From Escallonia rubra (lineage: Eukaryota; Streptophyta; Magnoliopsida; Escalloniales; Escalloniaceae), in contig JAVXUO010001311.1 in assembly GCA_033065855.1 (NCBI GenBank), positions 744,001-808,000 of the forward strand: a DNA stretch of 64,000 nt, in the 5' to 3' direction. Below the pieces are notes generated by a model, which was not told where the DNA came from, made no database searches, and saw only the letters and a list, made by a program, of their open reading frames with translations. Positions 3,543-16,766 of this stretch are shown here, piece by piece. How positions within the stretch are numbered: the stretch's first letter is position 1; every line of letters starts with the position of its first letter. The position numbers and the translations under genes are program-made.

Positions 3543-3971
3543 TTTTTTTTTCTAAGTAAATTTCATTAAAAGACATTACCCATTACAACTTACGGCAATA
3601 CCCGAACGGATATCCCTGGAACGACTAAGACAACACATCCAAACGGATGGTCTTGGCAAATGGCCCACATGGTCTTGGAGGAAAGCACAATAAACATAAG
3701 GATTACTCGTATTTGGGGATTACCAAATTAAAGGGTAGCCAGATGCGAGAAGATGCAAAAGATTGCATCAAATCCCTAGCTCCCCCTGAAATAGTGGTGA
3801 GAGCCATAGGCCGCTTTAGGTGGCAATTTACATTACTGCCGCGGCTATCATCGGAGCTCCAACAACAGCTGAAGAGGGGTCCTCCCAAGGCCGGATCGAA
3901 GCGATCCGCAGCTCGAAGAGAATGTGCATCCTCCAACTCTCGAAATTCCGGCATCTTCAAACCACAAGATC
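3543..3971 (-). mobile_element. 5'-truncated LINE (retroposed, antisense) with 18-bp target-site duplication
   Basis: The insert is bounded by the exact 18-bp repeat TTTAAAGGATAATTAATC at 3525-3542 and 3972-3989. It begins with a T-run on this strand, which is a poly(A) tail on the minus strand. Just before the tail the minus strand reads TTTTAATGAAATTTACTTAG, the usual 3' ending of plant LINEs. The remaining 350 bases hold an 85-codon minus-strand frame (3703-3960) that I do not recognise. It could be the C-terminal end of the LINE or a captured transcript. The alternative is a processed gene copy. Retroposition itself is clear. Confidence 0.78.
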
Positions 3972-4471
3972 TTTAAAGGATAATTAATCACTTCTTATAT
4001 GAAAGTTACGCTTCACAATTTTAAATTAACCTATCATTATCTAACAATTTTAAACTCACTTTTTCAAAAGCTGAAAAGCTTTTGAGAGCCTCAAACTAAG
4101 GTAACGTTTGACAACGTTTTTTCTTTCTCCCCAGTTTTTTTTTTCAGTTTTGTAAACTGGAGAAAAAAACTTGTTTGACTGACAGTTTTCCTTTTTTTTT
4201 TTCCTTTTAGTTTTGAAACCAATTTCTAAAACATGACTGTTTTTGAAAACTTCATGTTGGAATCTGGGTTTCAATTTTGTTTTTTGTTTTGAGATCCAAT
4301 CTTCAAACTTTATTGGAAGCAAAAAATGAGTATCATTTTAAGAAAATTCACTCACACACAGAGCACCACCACCAGGCACTTCCTTCCATCGACCAAATAT
4401 GCCATGTCGTCACACCCACAAATCTGCCCTTATCGTTGTCGTCACCCTATCGCCGTCGACAATCACATGTC

Positions 4472-5125
4472 TAGGGGTGAGCATTAAACCGTTCAAACCG
4501 ATCCGAACCGCTCAAACCGACCAAACCGAACCAATCCAATCCGAACCGTTCAAAGATCTTAATGGTTTGGTTTTACATTTCTCAAACCGACCTTGGTTCG
4601 GTTTGGTTCACGGTTCACATTTTCTAAACCGATTACAAACCGAACCGAACCGACCTATGATATGTTACTCTACTTTTAGTAACATTCATTGACAATTTCA
4701 CATATACGATAGTAAGGAAATCCATATATACAAATCTTGAAAGTTATAAGAAAAGAAAATAATGAGAACACTTTAACACGAAAAATTCGTGACCAATAAA
4801 TGTTTAATATTTTCTCATTCTTTCTCATACATTGAGGATCACTTATATATCGAATTTAACAAGATTATATGTAATTTAAAAAATATATAACTTGAATTTT
4901 TAATCACTGTTAGATCCAATAGTAGTTTGCAAGTGAACAACGTCTTTAAATGGACGCAAACCGATCCAAACCGACTAAACCGAACCGTCTAAACCGACCA
5001 AACCGAACCGTCCAAACCGATGGTGTTTGGTTTGGTTCGGTTTACAATTTTCCAAACTGAGGGGTAACGGTTTGGTTTGCGGTTTGACCCTCAAACCGAA
5101 CCAAACCGAACCGTGCTCACCCCTA
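4472..5125. mobile_element. Non-autonomous hAT element with 8-bp target-site duplication
   Basis: Perfect 12-bp terminal inverted repeats, TAGGGGTGAGCA at the left and TGCTCACCCCTA at the right, are flanked by the exact 8-bp repeat CACATGTC at 4464-4471 and 5126-5133. Both subterminal regions are packed with AAACCGAACCG-type hexamers in opposite orientations. The 654-bp element has no transposase. An 8-bp duplication with this end sequence is the signature of the hAT superfamily. Confidence 0.93.
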
Positions 5126-5133
5126 CACATGTC

Positions 5134-5502
5134 TGCCACACCACTGCCACACTCTCGCCACTGCCCACAGATCTGCCCCAGCACCACCACCACCCTACCG
5201 TCATCGCCACCCACAGATCTGGGCCCCCATCGCCAACCCACGCCTTCGACAACCACGGTTCTGCCACACCACCGTCACACTCTTGCCACTGTGACCCACA
5301 GATCTGCCCCAGCACCGCCATCTTACCGTCATCGCCACCCACAGATTTGGCCCCCCATCGCCAACTCACGCCTTCGATAACCATGGTTCTGCCACCCTAC
5401 CGCCTCACTCTCGCTATTGGCACCCACAGATTTGACCCAGCTCCACCCTACCGTCATCGCCACCCACGGATCTGGCCCCCTGTCACCAACCCACACCTTT
5501 GA
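5134..5502. repeat. C-rich tandem repeat, about three units of roughly 120-125 bp
   Basis: Blocks with the order ACCCACAGATCTG, ACCGTCATCGCC, CATCGCCAACCCACGCCTTC, GGTTCTGCCACACC recur about three times with point differences. The unit creates long open frames on both strands (for example 5077-5502 +), but these are by-products of the repeat. Confidence 0.8.
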
Positions 5503-5881
5503 GAATGAATCATACCTCAACTTACCATCTCTACCTAACTACCATGGACAATCAGCAGGACCTCAAGCAACGCCCGCCACCTCAGTACCATTGCACATCC
5601 CACAATTTTTCCTACTGTCACCACACCACCACCGTCACAATTGATTATGGTGGTGGTACTTCGAATTGGATGGTGGTGGTGCTTCGGGGAGTTCTGAAAA
5701 TCTGCTGGAGAAAAATGGTTAGTGGATAAATTAAGAAAAAAAATGTAAAAAAAACTCAAAATAAAAACTGGCTAATCAAACACGCATTTATTTTTGTAAA
5801 AAATAAAAACTAAATCGATTTTGATTTTGATTTTTTTTTTGAAACTGAAAATCAAACTATAAGTGATTTCAAACATATCCC

Positions 5882-7716
5882 AATATTTTGAAGTTAATAG
5901 AAGCTTTTTATTCGTGGGTCTATTTTATCATGAAACTCAAGCGAGACACCAAGTCAAACGATTGAAACAATTCGAACAGTGTTCCATTAACTCCGTGCCT
6001 TGGTTTGCTTCTCATAACTCCCGAACACTTGTCCTTTCTATCACCCTTGCGGGGGTTACCGAAAGAGCAATTATATGCCATCAGATTCAGAAGGCACGAT
6101 CAAAACAAGAGGTAAAGTCTCAAACAACTCTCTTTTGCAATTGGGTATTAAATAATTCTGATTAACCGCCCAAGCTCTGCACTGGGTAAATATTTTATTA
6201 ACCGCTCAACCTCTGAACTGGGTAAATACTAGAAACTTCAGAACTCCATTGCAGTAAAAACAAAGTTTGACATGAATGTTACTGTACAAAATAAGCTTTA
6301 CTAGAGAAGTCACTACAACCCTACTACCTTATCACCTTTCATGCATCACATCCAAATGACTCATTCAGTGTGCAAAAGCCAGAATAAGCAGTCCACCTCC
6401 AAAGAAAACGAAAGGCATTGTCCGCATCAACTTGGAGCAATTTGGCTTCTATTTGACGTCCTTTAGCAAGTGGGTTTCGGCAATGGAAGCCCCTCCTTGA
6501 CATCATCACACAACGACAGGCCATAGCCTACCAACTAAGCATATAAGCCATGGCAAATATTTTATGGGGCCGTCAGTATCACAGTTTAACGTTTCAGTAA
6601 TATAATTAGGCATGTCCAAGTCATGGTTATCGTTTCGATTTGTTCACGTTCTCCAAGTGCATTTAACCCTTTCTTGGCTGATATGTGTGGCTACGTGAGC
6701 AGTCACGACGGCCAGGCCGGCCACCACTTGGTAGCAGGCTATAGGCTAGTAATGGAGTTCTGCCAAAATTGGTGTCAAAGTTTATAGGTGCCTTATCTAC
6801 GCCAAAGTTTTGAGGTGTTTTATTTTAATTTCATTGAACACAAAAAATACTTCACAAGACATGGATGATAGTCCGGTCGTAACGTCTCTATAATGTTATA
6901 GATTAGAGTCGTAAAAGCAGAATATTTTGTGTAAAGAGTTACATAACTGTATTGAAAAAAAAATGGTCCATCTTTGTTAAACTTTATGTACCAAGATTTT
7001 GTCTTCTCGAGCTTGACGCTTTGAGTAGAAAATGAACCAACCTCAACATATGCAGGGTTACGATTTTCGCTTCCCTTTCGTTTACATACCTTGCTCTTTT
7101 CCTGTTTAGTCATTGTGACTTTACTTTTTTTTATATCACGGAAGGGGTCAAAACTTCGTAAAAAGACATATATAACGGCGACTAAAAGGTAATGGACATG
7201 TATAGATACAACTGCAAACGAAAAAATAAAGATAGTGATTTCAACCTTAATTACAAAAAATAACACTTATTTATTCACTATTATTTCAGAACTTCATTGT
7301 CACATTATCTAGAAGTCAACTTTTAAAACCAATTATAGTTCATAAATAGAGACATTTTAAGAGACAAAAACAAACAATATCTCCCTTATGATCACATTCA
7401 TTGAAACATAGAATGAACTTTTTAAATATCAAGTTGAGTAGCGATTACGAAGTAGTTATGCATCGAAGACTGGTGAGATCCATCTACACACGTGGGACAT
7501 GTGTTTCATCTTTCTTGCCCTCATGGTCTTAGTCTGGAATCTGGAGTAGGACCTCTGCTGGGTGAAATTGGTCAACCAAAATTGTTGTATCCACCGTCAA
7601 TTTCCTTGAAGTTTTTGTTCCAACTAGCATACTAGGCAAGGGATTGAGTCACGTGACGTGACATAGATCCTACCAACAAGAATTGCTCAGCGGAAGAATA
7701 TTGAGAAGATCTTTTT
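5882..7716. other. Intergenic, no gene supported
   Basis: This 1.8-kb AT-rich stretch contains a short imperfect duplication at about 6166-6230 (TTAACCGC..CTCTG.ACTGGGTAAATA twice) and a 61-codon minus frame at 6339-6524. That frame is unusually rich in Arg and Cys, but I cannot match it to a family. Nothing here supports a gene. Confidence 0.5.
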
Positions 7717-9024
7717 GGGTTAATTGTACTTGTATTCTTGAAGTTAGGATAAAATTATAATGAAAGAGACTAAATTTAAAAAGGTAACATATTATACCAA
7801 CAATTTTGAAAAGGTATCAACGACGTCCATCCGTCATTGACCCGTTAAAAAATATTTTTTTACTGATATCATATATAAGTATTCTTATAATGTCAATACT
7901 ACCTCCTAATCTTCAAACTAAAGTTTTTCCTTTAGAAACCAACATTGCGGTCACATATCACAGAACCTACCGTCGACCATCGCTGCATCTGCTATCGCCA
8001 CTGTTGGCCTTTATTAGCCATCGACATGCCTGTCACCTATCACCATCACCATGCTACAACTCAAACCAGTACCAATCGCCCCACCCACCATAGATCTAAT
8101 GATGCAACCAACTACCACCAGCTTGGAATTAGTACCCAAAGGGTTGATTGGTTTTTTTATGGTGGTGGTCGCTAACTTATTATGGTTAGTGAAGTGGATC
8201 GTTGGTGAGGGAGTTGGTGGTGGGCAACGATTTTGATATGGATTGGTGGTGGGTGGCTTGATCTTATTTGGGTGTGGCGGTGCGTGGTTAGATCTTATTT
8301 GGTTGTAGCCATGGGTGCTGTGGCTATTGTGATTGCAAGAATGGACGTTAACGGGGCTGCAACGACAAGGAGATCTAGGCGATAACAACTTTGAATGGGG
8401 TTGTATGAGTCATGCGTTTTGGGATCAATTGCATTGGGCGCCCCTAAGTTTGCTTATGGTAGCGCGCTTTGCCCCAAAGTTCGTTTTACCTATCTCTCAC
8501 TAAAAACTTGCATAAGTGTGGCACGAAACATCCCGCGACCACTTTCCTGCTAATAAACTCCTCGGAGTGGTAATTTAACTCAACTTTTGAGGCATTTTGT
8601 TGGCAAATTACCCTCCTTCCTCTATCTCTCTCTCTCTCTTTCACACACACACGCACACACATCCATCTTTATCATTCGCCTTTCATCTTCACCAATACCA
8701 CCACCACCGATATGCAGCCGACTCTCACCTCCATGCCCACAAACCACGACCTCCACCAATCACCAAACCCGCCGCCACATCTTTTCTCGACTGTCACCGC
8801 CACCTCTTTCCTAAAGACCACCGCCACCTTAGCCACCATTACAGAAAGGGGAAAATAGGGAATGACCCCCTCTACTTTACACATTGTGCGTTTTGCCTCC
8901 CTCCACTTCAAATTTAAGCACTAAACCCCCCTACAGTTTAAGAAAATGGGCACAGTTAATTGACCGTAACAAATCTTTGTAAAATGTCATTTTTATCCTT
9001 CCATATAACCTTCAATTTTTCGGG

Positions 9025-9411
9025 AAACCCGTGCAATCTCTCTATGCCCAAACCCATTTCATCTTTCTCTCTCAAAAATTTTCGGGAAGCATGCCCAAAC
9101 CAGTGTAATCTTCTCTGTTAATCCCCATATGCGTCGCGTCGCCGATCTACTGAACGAAGAGTGGAACAACTTGGAAATCTTGCCGATCTGCTAAACCGTT
9201 GCGGTCTTCTCTGTTCATCCCCAAACCCGTGCAATCTCTCTTTGCTTTCTCCCATTTCATCTTTCTCTCTCAAAGTTTTTTGGGAAGCATGCCCAAACCC
9301 GTGCAATCTTCTCTGTTCATTCCCATATGCGTCGCCGATCTACTGAACGAAGAGAGGAACAACTTGGAAATCGTGCCGATCTGCTAAACCGTTACGATCT
9401 TCAGCTGCAAC
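9025..9411. repeat. 198-bp tandem duplication inside the Pack-MULE
   Basis: Two adjacent units share AAACCCGTGCAATCTCTCT, CCCATTTCATCTTTCTCTCT, GGGAAGCATGCCCAAACC, CGCCGATCTACTGAACGAAG and GCCGATCTGCTAAACCGTT in the same order. It may be a second captured fragment that was duplicated. I do not recognise its source. Confidence 0.85.
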
Positions 9412-9543
9412 GATGCTTCTGTGGTGAGCTGAAGTGATAATGCTTAAATGTAACTGATTTGAATGGGTTTGTATATGAAATCTGCATTGTTTTGTGCTAT
9501 AGAGGCATGCTTTAATGACTATGAGATCTGTTCTTTTTTGCAG

Positions 9544-9827
9544 ATTCCTCACTTGAGACCTGCTGAATATAGAAGGTCTAGATTACCTAGGAACCGAAGG
9601 ACAGTGAACCGAGCCTATGGTGGCGTATTATCTGGCGTTGCTGTGAGAGAGAGGTATGGTCTTGTGAGATAACCTTAGCTCTTTGCATTTGGCCCTTCTT
9701 TGGCCTATGATTGACATTCGACTTTTTTGATAGTATCATTTGAGTTTTATTGGTGGAAGAGCAAAAGATCGTGAAGAAGGTTCTGAAGATTCAGAAGACA
9801 AAAGAAAAGCAGGCAGCAAAGAGCTAA
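9544..9827 (+). pseudogene. Captured ribosomal protein eL34 (RPL34) gene fragment, broken
   Basis: Exon-like block 1 (9544-9653) follows a pyrimidine-rich acceptor ending TTTTTTGCAG. It translates to [14 protein letters not shown], then [15 protein letters not shown], then AVRER, the central part of eukaryotic eL34. Block 2 (9734-9827) follows TTTTTTGATAG and, after two Ile codons, has TGA where Arg is expected. It then continues L(V)EEQKIVKKVLKIQKTKEK to a stop. The intron between them (9654-9733) is retained with GT-AG ends. The first half of eL34 (the N-terminal TYR..HSYAT region) is absent. The TGA is a CGA-to-TGA transition, typical of methylated transposon DNA. eL34 is a component of the cytosolic 60S subunit, but this copy cannot encode it. 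Confidence 0.9.
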
Positions 9828-11876
9828 GCTGAGGCATATTTAAAACCAAGTTTATTCTGTTGGAAAGAAATTTTGACTTTAGCAGATTGCAAGTTGTGCA
9901 CTGTTTAATGCTGAGGTGATTGCTTTTCATTTGAATGGATATCTAGTTAGTTGGTTTTGGTTTCTCATTTCAGCAAAAATGGTGTTATGATTTTCCAATA
10001 TATGTTATGCATGATTCCTTCTTAGCATTTGTTTGAAATATAATTAACATTTGAAAGTGATCCAGCTGTGTGTCACAGGTTGGTAAACGGGAAAAAAATT
10101 AACCTGCGTCTAATGAAAAGGAAAAGATTTTCTTAAAAATTTTATTTGACTTCTCTCTAAATTTCGAGGCTTCCAACATTGTTTTGAAATGTCTTGTGAA
10201 TAACAATTAGGTCACTTGGTCCAGTTTTCCTCTGTGAATCGTGTTGTCTGACTGAAGTATCTTTCTTTTGGTTATTATGTGGAGAGAAAAATTGTTGGAT
10301 TTTGAAGCACTTTACGCTCTTTGCCGAACACTATGTAACCCTTGCCGTAATCTGTAATCCGTTAGCTCTGGTCCTTGGGTTGTAAGCTCTATTTGAGCCT
10401 AGCCTAGAATCATTTGTGTAGAGGATATTTGAAGGATGACACAGTGATGGATTTTCCACTGTGTCATAATCGAGTCTTTAGCCATCAGTCTCCTGTTCGT
10501 GAACCCAAAGGCTATATATGGGGTGTTGCTCTCCTACAGAGGAAGAAAGGAGGCTGCAAATGGGTTTGGTAGTGGAAGAAATGAGGGTAAGGGATGAAGT
10601 TTTGTGTTATAAAGAGAGTATAAGGGCATTTTGGTCTTAAAAAAATACCTTTAGTGCACAAATGCTTTCCCTCCAAAAAACGCAGCTAAGTTGGATGATT
10701 TCCGTCAACTGTGCCCATTTTCTTAAACTGTGGGGGGGTTTAGTGCTTAAATTTGAAGTAGAGGGGGGCAAAACACACAACGTGTAAAGTAGAGGGGGTC
10801 ATTCCTTATTTTCCCATTACAGAAACCCATCACAACCATCAATTTTTTCCCTAGATCCCACCACAACCATCAATTATTACCATACACGAAGCTTAGAGCC
10901 CTTCTTCCTCCATTTTGATCATAATCAACCCTAGATCCCTATCTTTTGACTTGATATTCCCAAAATGCCCTTCTGAGTTCAGCCATGTCAAAATGTTGGC
11001 TGGAATATGGTTGGAGGGTGATCGGTTCCACAATGGTGTAAGTTTGTGATGCAAGATAGCTAAAATGAACTTTGGGGCGCAGCACGGTACCACGAGAAAA
11101 CTTAGGGGCACCCAGTGCAATTGAGCCTATATTTTGTGGTGATGGGCAAGGATGAGTGGTGGTGGTTGTGTATTTTGTTATAGTAGACAAAGAACGTACA
11201 GTGGTTGAGGTGGCAGCAACAGCGTGAACGGGGCAGCAGTTGGGGCGATTGGTGTGTGTGTGTATATGAACGCTTCAATCTTTGTGTGTGTGTGGTCTGG
11301 CAATTATTGTGGGTATGATGACATTTATGGATATGATATGGAGGACAATGGTGGTTGTGAGGCGACAAAACGGTGGGTGAATGGGGAGGGAATAGAAGGA
11401 AATGGGGAGCGAGAGGTCATGGCAGCAACTTCGGCGGCAGGAAGGTAGGGGTAGGTGGTAGGTGACGGAAGGCGGGAGACAACAATGACGGTGGAAAAAG
11501 AATAGAAAAAGTGGTGGTGCAGCGGAATGTGTCATGATGGTGGTGGATGGTGGGTGGGCCATTTTGGTGGGGTTGGAAGGTGGAGTGTCTAGCGGTTGGT
11601 AGTGGTGGTGATTATGGGCTATGCACATCTGAGGCGCGCCAGGTGCGGGTGGCTGTGGTGCAGTGACAGTGGTTCCTAATACAAAAGGGACAGATAAATG
11701 ATGCTTCCAAGGGTATTTCAACAAATTACCTTGTAAATTAGGGGCAATATAATCATTTTGTCCAAACTGCCATGTATTTTGGTATTTTATTGTCAACGAA
11801 CATCGGTGGTATTTATCTAAACGAATGGACACACTTGTAATTTTACCCTAACTTCAGAAATTTTGGTATAATTATT

Positions 11877-12538
11877 GGGAAAATTAGAAAAGACGGGGTT
11901 TTTGAGTTAAATATTTGGGGATGAGGAGTTTATTTTGGGAAATTGTGAAAAAGGGGGGCCACTTCAAAAAATCTCTGAAAAGGGTTCAAGTTGGAAAAAA
12001 TGGTTTTTTTGAAACTAACTAATTTCCCATCCCCAAATTACCCCTCCCCCTATTTGTCCTCGCATTCAGTAATTTTAGAAATCACGGTTTCAAACCGCGA
12101 CTTTAAAGTAGAAATCGCGGTTTAGAACCACGACTTTAATAGAAAACGTTGGTTCAGAACCACGTTTTCATTTTGTGCATAATTTAAAATGGAAAACATA
12201 TATACATACTAAAAACGTTATTTAGAACAACGATTTCTACTTTAAAGTCGCGGTTTCAAACCGTGATTTTTCCAAAAGTGTTGTATGCTGAGACAAACAG
12301 GGGGAAGGTAATTTGGGTAAACAAAATTATGTGTATGTGTTTGTTCGATTTGGAAGGGAAGATGGAGGAGGGTATATTGGGTAAACAAAAGATGAAGTTT
12401 TGAAAAAATCCAATTTTTTTTAAGCCCCCCATTGTTCAGAAATTTTCAAAAGATAATCCACTTTTTTTTAAGTTTACAAAAAGAAACCACCTTCCACTAA
12501 ATTTTTAACCCCAAAATCCACTTTTTTGTAATTTTCCC
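11877..12538. mobile_element. Small MULE-type MITE (E1) inserted in the right end of element A
   Basis: The left end reads GGGAAAATTAGAAAAGACGG. The right end, reverse-complemented, reads GGGAAAATTACAAAAAAGTGG. The flanks are ATAATTATT (11868-11876) and ATAACTATT (12539-12547), a 9-bp duplication with one change. The element is 662 bp with no coding capacity. It is in the same family as the element at 13175-13825. The core carries a dyad-rich array (about 12080-12275). Confidence 0.88.
12080..12275. repeat. Array of short dyad-symmetric motifs in E1
   Basis: Repeated imperfect palindromes such as AATCACGGTTTCAAACCGCG, AATCGCGGTTTAGAACCACG and AACGTTGGTTCAGAACCACG are spaced by AAAGTAGAA-type links. 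The same motif family fills the cores at about 12795-13070 and 13376-13625. Confidence 0.8.
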
Positions 12539-12794
12539 ATAACTATTCCATTCTTTTATGACGACAAAAAACTTTTGATAAAATATATTTTGTTGGGAAA
12601 ATGATGTAAAAGTGGGTTTTGGGATAAAACTTTTGGGGATGGTGGGTTTTTTAAAAAAACTTGTGAAAAAAGGGGGCCACTTTTGAAAATATCTGAAAAA
12701 GGGAATTAGTTAGGAAAAAAGGGTTTTTTTTAACCTGACTTTTTCATTTTCCAAATTACCCCTCCTTTTGTTTGTCTCTGCATAAAACACTTTT

Positions 12795-13070
12795 AAAAAT
12801 CGCTGTTTGAAACCACGACTTCAAAGTAGAAATCGCGGTTTTAAACAACGTTTTTAGTATATATATATATATATATATGTTTTTCCTTTTAAATTAGGCA
12901 GAAAATGAAAAAAAAATTGAAAACGTGGTTTTGAACCACGTTTTCTATTTAAAAACGTGATTTTGAACCATTTTTTTAATTTAAAATCGTGGTTTTGAAC
13001 CACGTTTTCTACTAAATAGCGATTTTCACTTTAAAGTCGCGGTTTCAAACCGCGATTTCCAAAAGTGTTG
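12795..13070. repeat. Array of short dyad-symmetric motifs in E2, with an AT microsatellite
   Basis: Motifs such as ACGTGGTTTTGAACCACGT and TCGCGGTTTCAAACCGCGA recur, several as perfect palindromes. An (AT)n run sits at about 12857-12878. Confidence 0.8.
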
Positions 13071-13174
13071 TATACAGAAACAAACAAAAGGAGGGGTAAT
13101 TTGTGAAATGGAAAAGTCAGGTTTAAAAAAAACCTTTTTTTTCCGACTAATCCCCCTTTTTAGAGATTTTCAAA

Positions 13175-13825
13175 GGGAAAATTAGAAAAGAAGGGGTTTT
13201 GGAGTTAAACATTTGGGGATGAGGGGTTTATTTTGTAAAATTGTGAAAAAAGGGGGCCACTTCAAAAAATCTCTGAAAAAGGGTTCAAGTTGGAAAAAAG
13301 TGGTTTTTTTTAAACTAACTTTTTTCCATCCCCAAATTACCCCTTCCCCAGTTTGTCCCGTATACAGTACTTTTGAAAATCGCGGTTTCAAACTGCGACT
13401 TTAAAGTAGAAATCGCAGTTTAGAACCACGACTTTAAGTAGAAAACGTGATTTAGAACCACGATTTTAAGTAGAAAACGTGGTTCAGAACCACGTTTTCA
13501 TTTTTTTTTCATTTTCTGCGTAATTTAAAATGGAAAACATTTATATATACTAAAAACGTTGTTTAAAATCATGATTTTTACTTAAAGTCGTGGTTCTAAA
13601 CCACGTTTTCTACTTAAAGTCGTGTATGTGTTTGTCTGAATTGGAAGAGAAGATGGGGAGGGTATTTTTGGTAAACAAAAGATGAAGTTTTGAAAATACC
13701 CATTTTTTTAAGCCCCCCATTGTTCAGAAATGTTCAAAAGATAATCCACTTTTTCTTAAGTTTACAAAAAAAAACCACCTTCCACTAATTTTTAACCCCA
13801 AAACCCATTTTTTTGTAATTTTCCC
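13175..13825. mobile_element. MULE-type MITE (E3) nested in E2
   Basis: The left end reads GGGAAAATTAGAAAAGAAGG. The right end, reverse-complemented, reads GGGAAAATTACAAAAAAATGG. Both are nearly identical to E1. The exact 9-bp flanks are ATTTTCAAA at 13166-13174 and 13826-13834. The element is 651 bp, with a dyad motif array at about 13376-13625. Confidence 0.92.
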
Positions 13826-14055
13826 ATTTTCAAAAGTGGCCCCCCTTTTTCACAAGTTTCTAAAAAAACCCACCATCCCCAAAAGTTTTATCCCAAAACC
13901 CACTTTTACATAATTTTCCCTATTTTGTTGCTTAAAATCTGAGTAGACTAGAGTACTCCTTGCCGAATAGTTTTGTTTGAGCTTTTAATGGAATTGAGAA
14001 TTTCACCCAAAAAAAGTACTTATCGATCTTATTCATTGATAGGAGAATTTGGTAA

Positions 14056-15326
14056 GGGTTAATTACACTTATGTCCCTGAGGTTATAGGGTAATTACACG
14101 CGTGTCCATAAGTTTAGAAAATAGGCACTTATGTCCTTTGACCTAACGGAGTATTGAAATACTTAACGGTTTGAATGAAATGACCACATTGCCCACGATT
14201 GAAAATGTAAAATACCATTCATTCCTCTCTTCCCTAACCTCTATCTTTTTCCCCTGCAATTCTGGCCACAGTCACCGCCATTCACCAAAGCCAATACCCA
14301 CCACAACTAACTAATACCAATAACCACTGCCTCAACAAAGCCAATGCCGCCATTCACCAAAGCCAATGCCGCCATTCACCAAAGCCAATAACCACTGCCT
14401 CAACACCACCATGGCCACAGTCACCGCCATTCACCAAAGCCAATGCCGCCAACACCACCATCTATCAAAGCCAATACCCACCACAACTAACTAATACCAA
14501 CTAAATGCATCAATCGTTTATCTTTTAAAAAATTAAATTTACCGCTGAAATCTAGAAATAAAACCACCTCCGGCGAGCCTACCAGTTGAAAAAATTAATT
14601 TGATCGGCTGCCGAGCCTACCACGGCGACGTAGATGCTCCGGTGGACGATGTGGTGGTTGGTCCGGCGAGCGATGTAGATGGGTGCCGGCGGTGCTGTGA
14701 TGAGGTGGCTGTGGTTTGTGTCTTGGGTCGTGGATTTGGGTACTGGCGACGTTGCAATGATGCCGGCGTGGCTTATGTTGTGCCGACGGTGATTTGAGTC
14801 TTCGGTTGTCGATTACAGCCATGTCTTTGGTGCGGATTTGGTGGTGGTTCGTTGGTGGTCTTGGCGCCGGTGGTCAATCTCCGTTCCGGCGACGACGACA
14901 GCGATGGGTTACTTAAGGGGAGGGTGAGGGCGGGGAGGGTGGGACGACGAGAGGGGTGGGGTGTAGTGGGGCACTGTGCGGGGTGCGGGGAGTTGGAGAG
15001 AGAGAGAGAAATAGAGTTAGGATTGATATTCAAATTAAAAAAATTAAAGGAAAAAAGGCTTTATCAAAAAGGAAAAAAACTACAAATTTGGAGAAAAAAA
15101 ATAAGATTTTAAGAATACGTGTATATACATTGCAAGGGTAATATTGTCATTTTAAGAATACGTATTTATGACATCAGCAAAAAAGTACACTTTTTAGACG
15201 GATATTTGACGGATGGACACAGCGTTACCTTTTTAACGTTTGTGGACACGATTTGTTACCTTTTGAAAGTTAGTGTCATTGACTATAATTTCACCCAAAC
15301 CTCAGGGATATAAGTGTAATTAACCC
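14056..15326. mobile_element. MULE-type non-autonomous element (F) with 9-bp target-site duplication
   Basis: The terminal inverted repeats match at 28 of 29 positions. They begin GGGTTAATTACACTTAT and continue TCCCTGAGGTT. The flanks are the exact 9-bp ATTTGGTAA at 14047-14055 and 15327-15335. The interior holds repeats of CCATTCACCAAAGCCAATGC (about 14278-14470), GC-rich stretches and no transposase. The 9-bp duplication assigns it to Mutator-like elements. Confidence 0.93.
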
Positions 15327-15464: not shown

Positions 15465-16013
15465 TCACCTGTTAGTTTCATCATCTTTCCACATTTCAAC
15501 CCAATTCTTCTGAGCTTCTTCAATCCCAAGAAGCGAACCCTTTTCATCTGGATTCCAGCTTGTGGACAGAGTGCCATAAGCAATCCCAACTGTCGAAGCA
15601 CCAAAGGTTAGGAAAGTTGTCAAGAATGGTAACCAAACTGGCACATTCCACCAATGCTGTTCCTTAATTACACCAAAACCTTGCAGCAGGACTAGACCAG
15701 TGGCCAATGGTGCCCCCACATAAAACAATATCCTCACAATCATCCTATTTAATACCACATCTGGTATCTTGTCGTCGTCGTTGTCGCCGCCACTGCTCCC
15801 TCCACTGACGTTTCTTTGGACGGTTTCTTCGCCAGTGGTTTTTTCCTTCTGTAACTTAGCTTGTGCACCTGAGAAGCCTTTTGCTTTGGCATGCACCTTC
15901 CATGATCTGTTGGGGAGGTTTGGCTCTTTCATGGTTGTGGGGTGAAGCATTTGGCTTCTTGGCTTCCATGGAAATAGCCTTGGTGTTTGCTCTAGACAGA
16001 ACAGAGCCTTCAT
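15465..16013 (-). CDS. PAM68L: PAM68-like plastid membrane protein (DUF3464)
   Basis: An intronless 182-codon frame. The first 45-50 residues are basic and Ser/Pro-containing, consistent with a chloroplast transit peptide. An acidic stretch GGDNDDDKIPD (about 75-85) follows. Then comes the family core: VVLNRMIVRI, a first hydrophobic span at about 93-112 (ILFYVGAPLATGLVLL), a short turn, a second span at about 125-147 (VWLPFLTTFLTFG..), and the tail YGTLSTSWNPDEKGSLLG. This is the PAM68/DUF3464 architecture. PAM68 assists photosystem II assembly. The PAM68-like paralogue (At5g52780) assists NDH complex assembly in thylakoids. Size and the DUF21-CBS neighbour favour the PAM68L paralogue, but that assignment rests on synteny as I recall it. 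Confidence 0.88.
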   Translation of the reverse strand: MKALFCLEQTPRLFPWKPRSQMLHPTTMKEPNLPNRSWKVHAKAKGFSGAQAKLQKEKTTGEETVQRNVSGGSSGGDNDDDKIPDVVLNRMIVRILFYVGAPLATGLVLLQGFGVIKEQHWWNVPVWLPFLTTFLTFGASTVGIAYGTLSTSWNPDEKGSLLGIEEAQKNWVEMWKDDETNR

Positions 16014-16766
16014 GGTTTCCTAGGCTTTGTTTCTTTTAGTGCCATGTATGTATTTCTTCAACTTCTCAGTAGCTCTAAACATCTTATCCAAAATAATGAA
16101 TGGTGTGCCTTGGTTTCAAAAGATCTCAGCTGTTTTGTCTTGTAAGATCATTATTTGTAGATATTACAGGTCCTGCCCTTTGCAGAGTGACAAATTTGTC
16201 CCCATACAGAGCTTCAGCAACCATTTACCATAGAATTCCAATTACCAAATGCCTATCACACCATGCCATGCCAAACTGCTCGGGGCTGTTTTGGCCAATT
16301 TAGGATTTCGTAACTAAACACCTCCAAAACTGACTGCTGGTGCTGTCATCTTCTAATACAAGGACCAAGCAACTCAGAGTGAGGGCCAAAATATATCATG
16401 CCTACTACTACTGTACAAGGGTTATTCTAAGACATCAATTAGTAAAATTTATTCTTTCTACCACTAAAACAACATATGCATCAAGGAACGCCCCATATTT
16501 TACGTGCAAAACATTCTTGCCGCCCTCCCCACGCTATGAGATGCATTTTTGGTTGTACAGGAAATTGGAATCATGTCAAAAATCAAGTCAAATATGCCAG
16601 GAAAACCTCGTAGGTATTATTTGTACTACAATAGCAGAATTACAAAGTAACTACTTTTCATAAAAGTTATGTTTCAAGTCCCGAGATTAAGAATTACAGA
16701 GGCATGCCTGCATAGTTCAAAAAGTTTTGAAGCATCTTGCCTAAGAGGACGTAGAGATCGATAAGA
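16014..16766. other. PAM68-like promoter region and 3' region of the DUF21-CBS gene
   Basis: About 750 bases separate the PAM68-like ATG from the last codon of the upstream same-strand gene. No third gene is seen. Short open frames here have no family resemblance. Confidence 0.5.

Follow-up and report, generated by a model that had tools for sequence, protein, structure and literature searches.

We have found that a short intergenic stretch of the Escallonia rubra genome carries seven small DNA transposons inserted in and beside one another. The stretch occupies positions 7717-15326 of the 64-kb window that was analyzed (744001-808000 of contig C2367, JAVXUO010001311.1; all positions below are those of the window) in an assembly totaling 566,129,122 bases (3222 contigs), which is also the source of every relative described here. 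This stretch, with the stop codon of a PAM68-type gene some 140 bp away, would have taken at least seven insertions of short transposons resembling Mutator-like elements (MULEs), drawn from four families (A and F; B; C; and E1, E2 and E3), with A arriving before B and B before C, A before E1, and E2 before E3. F would stand alone, the nesting ordering neither F nor E2 relative to A, and a transposase supplied from elsewhere would have moved the elements. We consider that seven insertions, their nesting order and the capture by C of part of an RPL34 gene from DNA are very probably the best explanation of the locus. Nesting and order are supported by insertion-free relatives as well as by flanking duplications. 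Insertion of E1 into A, of C into B and of E3 into E2 is shown or well supported; insertion of B into A is supported but is the weakest nesting link. The same four nestings had been proposed in a preliminary description of the sequence.

That description had given all seven elements inverted ends and flanking duplications, and all of these were found. C (8848-10815, forward strand) is flanked by the 10-bp duplication ATTACAGAAA (8838-8847 and 10816-10825, 10/10), E2 (12595-13920, no strand assigned) by TATTTTGTT (9/9), E3 (13175-13825, forward strand) by ATTTTCAAA (9/9) and F (14056-15326, forward strand) by ATTTGGTAA (9/9); E1 (11877-12538, forward strand) lies between ATAATTATT and ATAACTATT, which agree at 8/9 positions. 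For A (7717-12549, reverse strand; flanks 7708-7716 and 12550-12558) and B (8422-11127, no strand assigned; flanks 8413-8421 and 11128-11136) the match is 6/9 in each case, counted by eye, so that the flank counts reported earlier are borne out throughout. Random 9-mer pairs in the window agree at 9/9 with a frequency of 3e-5, at 8/9 or better with 2e-4 and at 6/9 or better in 1.4% of cases, and the frequency of a 10/10 match is 1e-5. With chance rates this small, C, E1, E2, E3 and F are firm from their duplications, while A and B, at a level reached by 1.4% of random pairs, need support beyond them. If the borders are moved off the inverted ends by 2-4 bp, the duplications of A and B rise to 7/9, and we are unsure of their exact form. 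The 64 kb were also scanned de novo under strict conditions, namely an exact duplication of 9 or 10 bp and terminal matches at 20 or more of 25 bases. Five rows resulted, for C, E3, F and two E-family internal repeats, against none in any of ten shuffles; by its design the scan is blind to E1, A and B, whose duplications are inexact, and to E2, the seed being an exact terminal 9-mer.

The nesting of E3 in E2 can be read from E2 itself, which without E3 is 666 bp long and forms a near-complete palindrome, self-complementary over 687 columns at 77.7%, with E3 in its right arm. Across 281 offsets, removal of 660 bp restores the palindrome best at starts 13165-13175, and the E3 site is uninterrupted by any large gap in all seven E2-type relatives aligned, which are 86-91% alike. 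E1 lies at the right end of A, its right duplication stopping 2 bp short of A's terminus. Among 180 offsets for the removal of 671 bp, those starting at 11873-11877 yield the highest-scoring anchored alignment of this end of A to F, and terminus-anchored alignments to F, L005, L008 and L012 score 48 to 105 without E1 but -54 to -37 when it is retained. For C in B the evidence is the 10/10 duplication together with the arm spacing of B relatives. B is 728 bp long without C and has inverted ends of 132 bp that are 75% alike; in 26 of 40 scored places both B arms are present, 527-771 bp apart (match end to match end), without C, and listed beside these are 13 places with one arm only. The 40 include the window's own B, the first-look candidates numbered 280, and the 26 were picked by hand; one whole B relative lies at 286366-287146 of contig C2873.

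For B in A the evidence consists of B's inverted ends, its 6/9 duplication and the size of A's family. A is 1447 bp long after excision of B and E1. Its left end matches the right end of F at 147/182 ungapped sites over 190 bp, and its right end, with E1 removed, matches the left end of F at 105/144 over 150 bp; these left-to-right and right-to-left matches place A and F in one family in opposite orientation. F is matched over its full length (1-1271) at four other places in the assembly, and its nearest relative, at 98% identity, has the same ends. Among seven further A/F loci a perfect 9-bp duplication is present at L005 (1314 bp) and L008 (1141 bp) and an 8/9 duplication at L006, and at the other four no duplication pair was found within the 3.2 kb examined.

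Nesting gives an order with which the usual age proxies can be compared. Decay of the flanking duplications agrees with it, and so does distance to relatives, whereas the identity of the terminal inverted repeats (TIRs) disagrees. Duplication mismatches number three each for A and B, one for E1 and none for C, E2, E3 and F. Divergence from a leave-one-out consensus is 1.2% for C (four copies, one truncated) and, from a set of 14 E elements, 1.7% for E3 and 10.0% for E1, the last of which may include a subfamily difference. Nearest relatives are 98% identical for F and 91% for E2 (the best of seven aligned), and best matches to the left 184 bp of A and the left 426 bp of B are 79% identical, rising to 82% and 84%, respectively, in shorter stretches; a nearest-copy distance bounds insertion age only if the window copy did not itself serve as the source. 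Mismatch counts and divergence alike fit hosts older than guests, as had been suggested. As for the further suggestion of a good natural clock, it fails when applied to the inverted repeats. Within the outermost 100 bp, the two ends are 73% identical in A (26 gap columns), 79% in B, 94% in C, 73% in E1, 95% in E2 and 76% in E3, and those of F are 93% identical over 30 bp, with 41 gap columns at 100 bp. The host and guest values for A and B (73/79) and for B and C (79/94) fit the order. The preliminary description had held that guests with TIRs more diverged than those of their hosts would speak against it, and the computed identities place host E2 and guest E3 in just this relation. Ranking by TIR identity would make E2 younger than E3, and the pair is a counter-example in which the order is known independently of TIR identity. 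We have rejected TIR divergence as a clock for E1/E3 and for E2/E3.

Several observations weigh against the account given here, and they are best considered together with the explanations that they favor. Two concern the ends themselves: TIR identity is level for A and its guest E1 (73/73) and reversed for E2 and E3 (95/76). It could be argued that TIR divergence is a usable clock after all and that the low value for E3 is due to misplacement of its ends or to more rapid decay. According to PMC3310237, TIRs are often very similar in young elements, and the A/B and B/C identities do rank as expected. The ends of E3, however, are exact, as judged by its duplication and by the excision test, and the gap between its arms is common to its relatives. 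In 12 close E3 copies (complete, more than 85% identical, the two window copies excluded and three close copies left out as incomplete) left-right identity is 0.75-0.87 with a mean of 0.78, whereas comparison with E3 gives means of 0.98 for left against left and 0.975 for right against right. A tree built from 48 arms (24 elements) places the left arms of 15 of the elements, including E1 and E3, beyond one branch (support 99) and the right arms of the same 15 beyond another (support 88); an arm's nearest neighbor is its own opposite arm for 4 of the 48, one being E2's left arm. This grouping of arms by side indicates that the asymmetry of E1 and E3 was already present in a mobile ancestor; the symmetry of E2's arms looks like a property of its type. 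The arms of the window's C are likewise 5.6% apart from left to right and 0.9% from the same arms of the copy L028, and over 190 bp the left end of A is closer to the right end of F (the 147/182 given above, with 13 gap columns) than to its own right end (113/153, with 62 gap columns). A third C copy, L029, speaks on the other side, its left arm being nearly as close to its own right arm (8.4% apart) as to the nearest left arm (8.3%); the side-wise pattern is not clear there, and inherited asymmetry is therefore not found in every copy. On balance we regard a working TIR clock as very improbable, and conclude that, for the E family and for the window's C, divergence between the inverted repeats mostly reflects family history and not insertion time.

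The remaining objections bear chiefly on A, B and E1. With three mismatches each at the borders used here, A and B fall outside the limit of at most two mismatches given in PMC3310237, and their 6/9 flanks could raise the suspicion that they are chance pairs of inverted ends. We think this very improbable, as A's two ends coincide with the ends of F and its relatives, two of which have perfect duplications, and as both B arms recur at a like spacing in 26 of the 40 scored places. A and F are nevertheless similar only near their ends, and B in A consequently lacks an aligned empty site. For E1, only terminus-anchored alignment separates A's end with and without the insertion, a free local alignment of that end to F scoring 61 in both cases. 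Also to be counted here is a Pfam search of 10 of the cluster's 41 open reading frames, which gave no match and no transposase. The presence of three E-family members within about 2 kb might further suggest that E1, E2 and E3 arose by local duplication and not by separate insertions. Yet the three have three different flanking duplications, and for each of them relatives that are nearer or comparable exist at other places in the assembly (for E1, in searches made with a sequence other than its own), so that local duplication seems to us hardly credible. Across the family, in which E1 and E3 are close sisters (554/606 ungapped sites identical), a duplication of at least 8/9 lies within 1 bp of the ends in 15 of 23 full-length rows, which include E1 and E3 and contain two pairs with a common duplication, each perhaps a single insertion seen twice; 7 of 30 E loci had been left out as incomplete, the close copies L044, L047 and L051 among them.

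We also find that C, which the first reading of the sequence had not recognized as such, is a Pack-MULE-type element, and it adds to the nested insertions a gene capture with an identified donor. C is 1968 bp long, with ends of 109 bp that are 94.5% alike, and its positions 577-1692 (9424-10539 of the window, forward strand) correspond to a stretch of an RPL34 (eL34) locus, introns included, the donor being L027 on contig C1369, a different contig from that of C. Two forward-strand exons lie within this stretch: one at 9544-9653, corresponding to residues 54-90 of eL34 chain 7qiw_i, and the last, with its stop codon, at 9734-9827, as judged from translations and the eL34 alignment. Together they match residues 54-120 of that chain, with four residues missing from the joined query, which gave Pfam PF01199 at 3.1e-8 and eL34 chains in the PDB at 1.4e-27; the best of these chains are presumably from plants. 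An in-frame stop near the start of the last exon marks the copy as broken, and the retained introns indicate that the piece was captured from DNA rather than mRNA. The interior of C, used as a query against the assembly, gave 14 rows. One is the window itself and three are further C copies; the donor accounts for three collinear pieces, longer siblings of C for four rows, and other eL34-like sequence for three rows on two contigs (C1149 twice and C2628).

The three donor pieces match C at 764/808 ungapped sites over C positions 577-1386, at 192/203 over 1398-1613 and at 71/75 over 1618-1692. Similarity is even along the capture (0.90-0.96 in windows, 0.946-0.947 per piece, 94.6% for the first piece). 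We considered a capture in two steps, as C positions 1429-1594 match the sibling X_L033 at 162/166 sites, and rejected it; given the even similarity, one capture is the simpler reading. On the reverse complement of the donor, positions 3916-5699 are occupied by an element of 1784 bp that has 75-bp inverted ends (86.7% alike) and is flanked on either side by ATATTTCTG. C is without this element, which therefore probably postdates the capture; the captured piece would have been contiguous at the time, and the donor would have gained its element later. The element's target 9-mer is altered in C, so that the empty site is not letter-perfect, and a second break in the donor relative to C spans about 470 bp with inverted repeats inside. 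With siblings as the unfilled reference, the left capture junction has the overlap GTG in all three siblings printed and the right junction the overlap AG in three of four, L032 differing. Such short overlaps suggest that capture may have proceeded by template switching during gap repair, although chance alone can also produce overlaps of 2-3 bp. In animal Pack-TIRs, PMC8277862 gives junction overlaps of 1-36 bp with a median of 2, read as template switching.

Elsewhere in the assembly C has two full copies and one truncated copy. L028 is flanked by TAAAATTTA and L029 by TAATATTTA, with four extra bases before its left end, and the different duplications at these loci and in the window indicate that the copies moved separately; L030 lacks the right end and a duplication. 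The longer siblings (L031-L034, 3.6-4.1 kb) have the same ends as C and contain, in whole or in part, a 166-bp block resembling the RPL34 locus, without the exons. Four of their open reading frames, tested with an autonomous partner in mind, gave no transposase and one sub-threshold GRF zinc finger (E 0.013). In the left part of C (9025-9402), which sibling elements match, a 113-bp stretch recurs after 198 bp (88% alike) and a 74-bp stretch after 193 bp (95% alike).

The assignment of the elements to the MULEs, also made in the preliminary description, is supported by structure only: the 9-10 bp duplications and ends starting with GG bear it out, and the Pfam search of 10 of 41 reading frames gave no match. 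Like plant MULEs and MULE-derived miniature inverted-repeat elements, those in the window combine such duplications and ends with short bodies, many relatives and nesting; unlike plant MULEs, they are linked to no transposase. A MULE criterion of a 9-11 bp duplication with at most two mismatches describes C, E1, E2, E3 and F. Against the library criterion of PMC3310237 (TIRs of at least 100 bp, 80% alike), C at 94% and E2 at 95% lie within the range over 100 bp, and B at 79%, E3 at 76%, E1 at 73% and A at 73% with 26 gap columns lie under 80%; the ends of E1 and E3 (73-76%) and those of F, alike mainly over the first 30 bp, are below the level used for that library. C resembles Pack-MULEs without basic difference, in that an intron-bearing gene fragment lies between MULE-like TIRs and a 10-bp duplication, the parental gene is on another contig, and copies with different duplications attest to movement after capture. 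A literature text query combining Pack-MULE with ribosomal protein L34 gave no match. Nested MULEs (PMC3903597) and multi-copy Pack-MULEs (PMC3310237) are established, the former paper giving nested insertions in over a third of candidate coding-MULEs of maize and rice. The hosts described there code for transposase, unlike those in the window, which have no coding capacity in the tested reading frames. The locus is a tidy, well-resolved example of a common phenomenon.

We note that an E stretch was found in the flanks of another E locus at 2 of 28 loci (83,440 bp), compared with 0 of 17 in a control (100,712 bp), the 28 being best matches and not a random draw, with 1194 first-look candidates for the family; self-clustering of the family is suggestive only. 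That E elements prefer to land in or beside their own and related families, producing self-reinforcing sites, with the unlike arms kept as functionally different ends, strikes us as an unlikely extension of these counts. At one locus, L042, E2-type and E3-type elements lie about 150 bp apart, at 687-1349 and about 1500-2165.

A search of the whole 64-kb window against Rfam gave no matches at gathering scores. F contains a 22-bp tandem repeat at 14332-14389, and on nine contigs F positions 1-210 are joined almost directly to position 333 onward, which indicates that the stretch at 14266-14388 varies within the family. The neighboring PAM68-type gene (15465-16019, reverse strand) matches Pfam PF11947, 'Photosynthesis affected mutant 68', and the end of F lies close enough to its stop codon, at about 140 bp, that F may be in or adjoin the 3' untranslated region of the gene.

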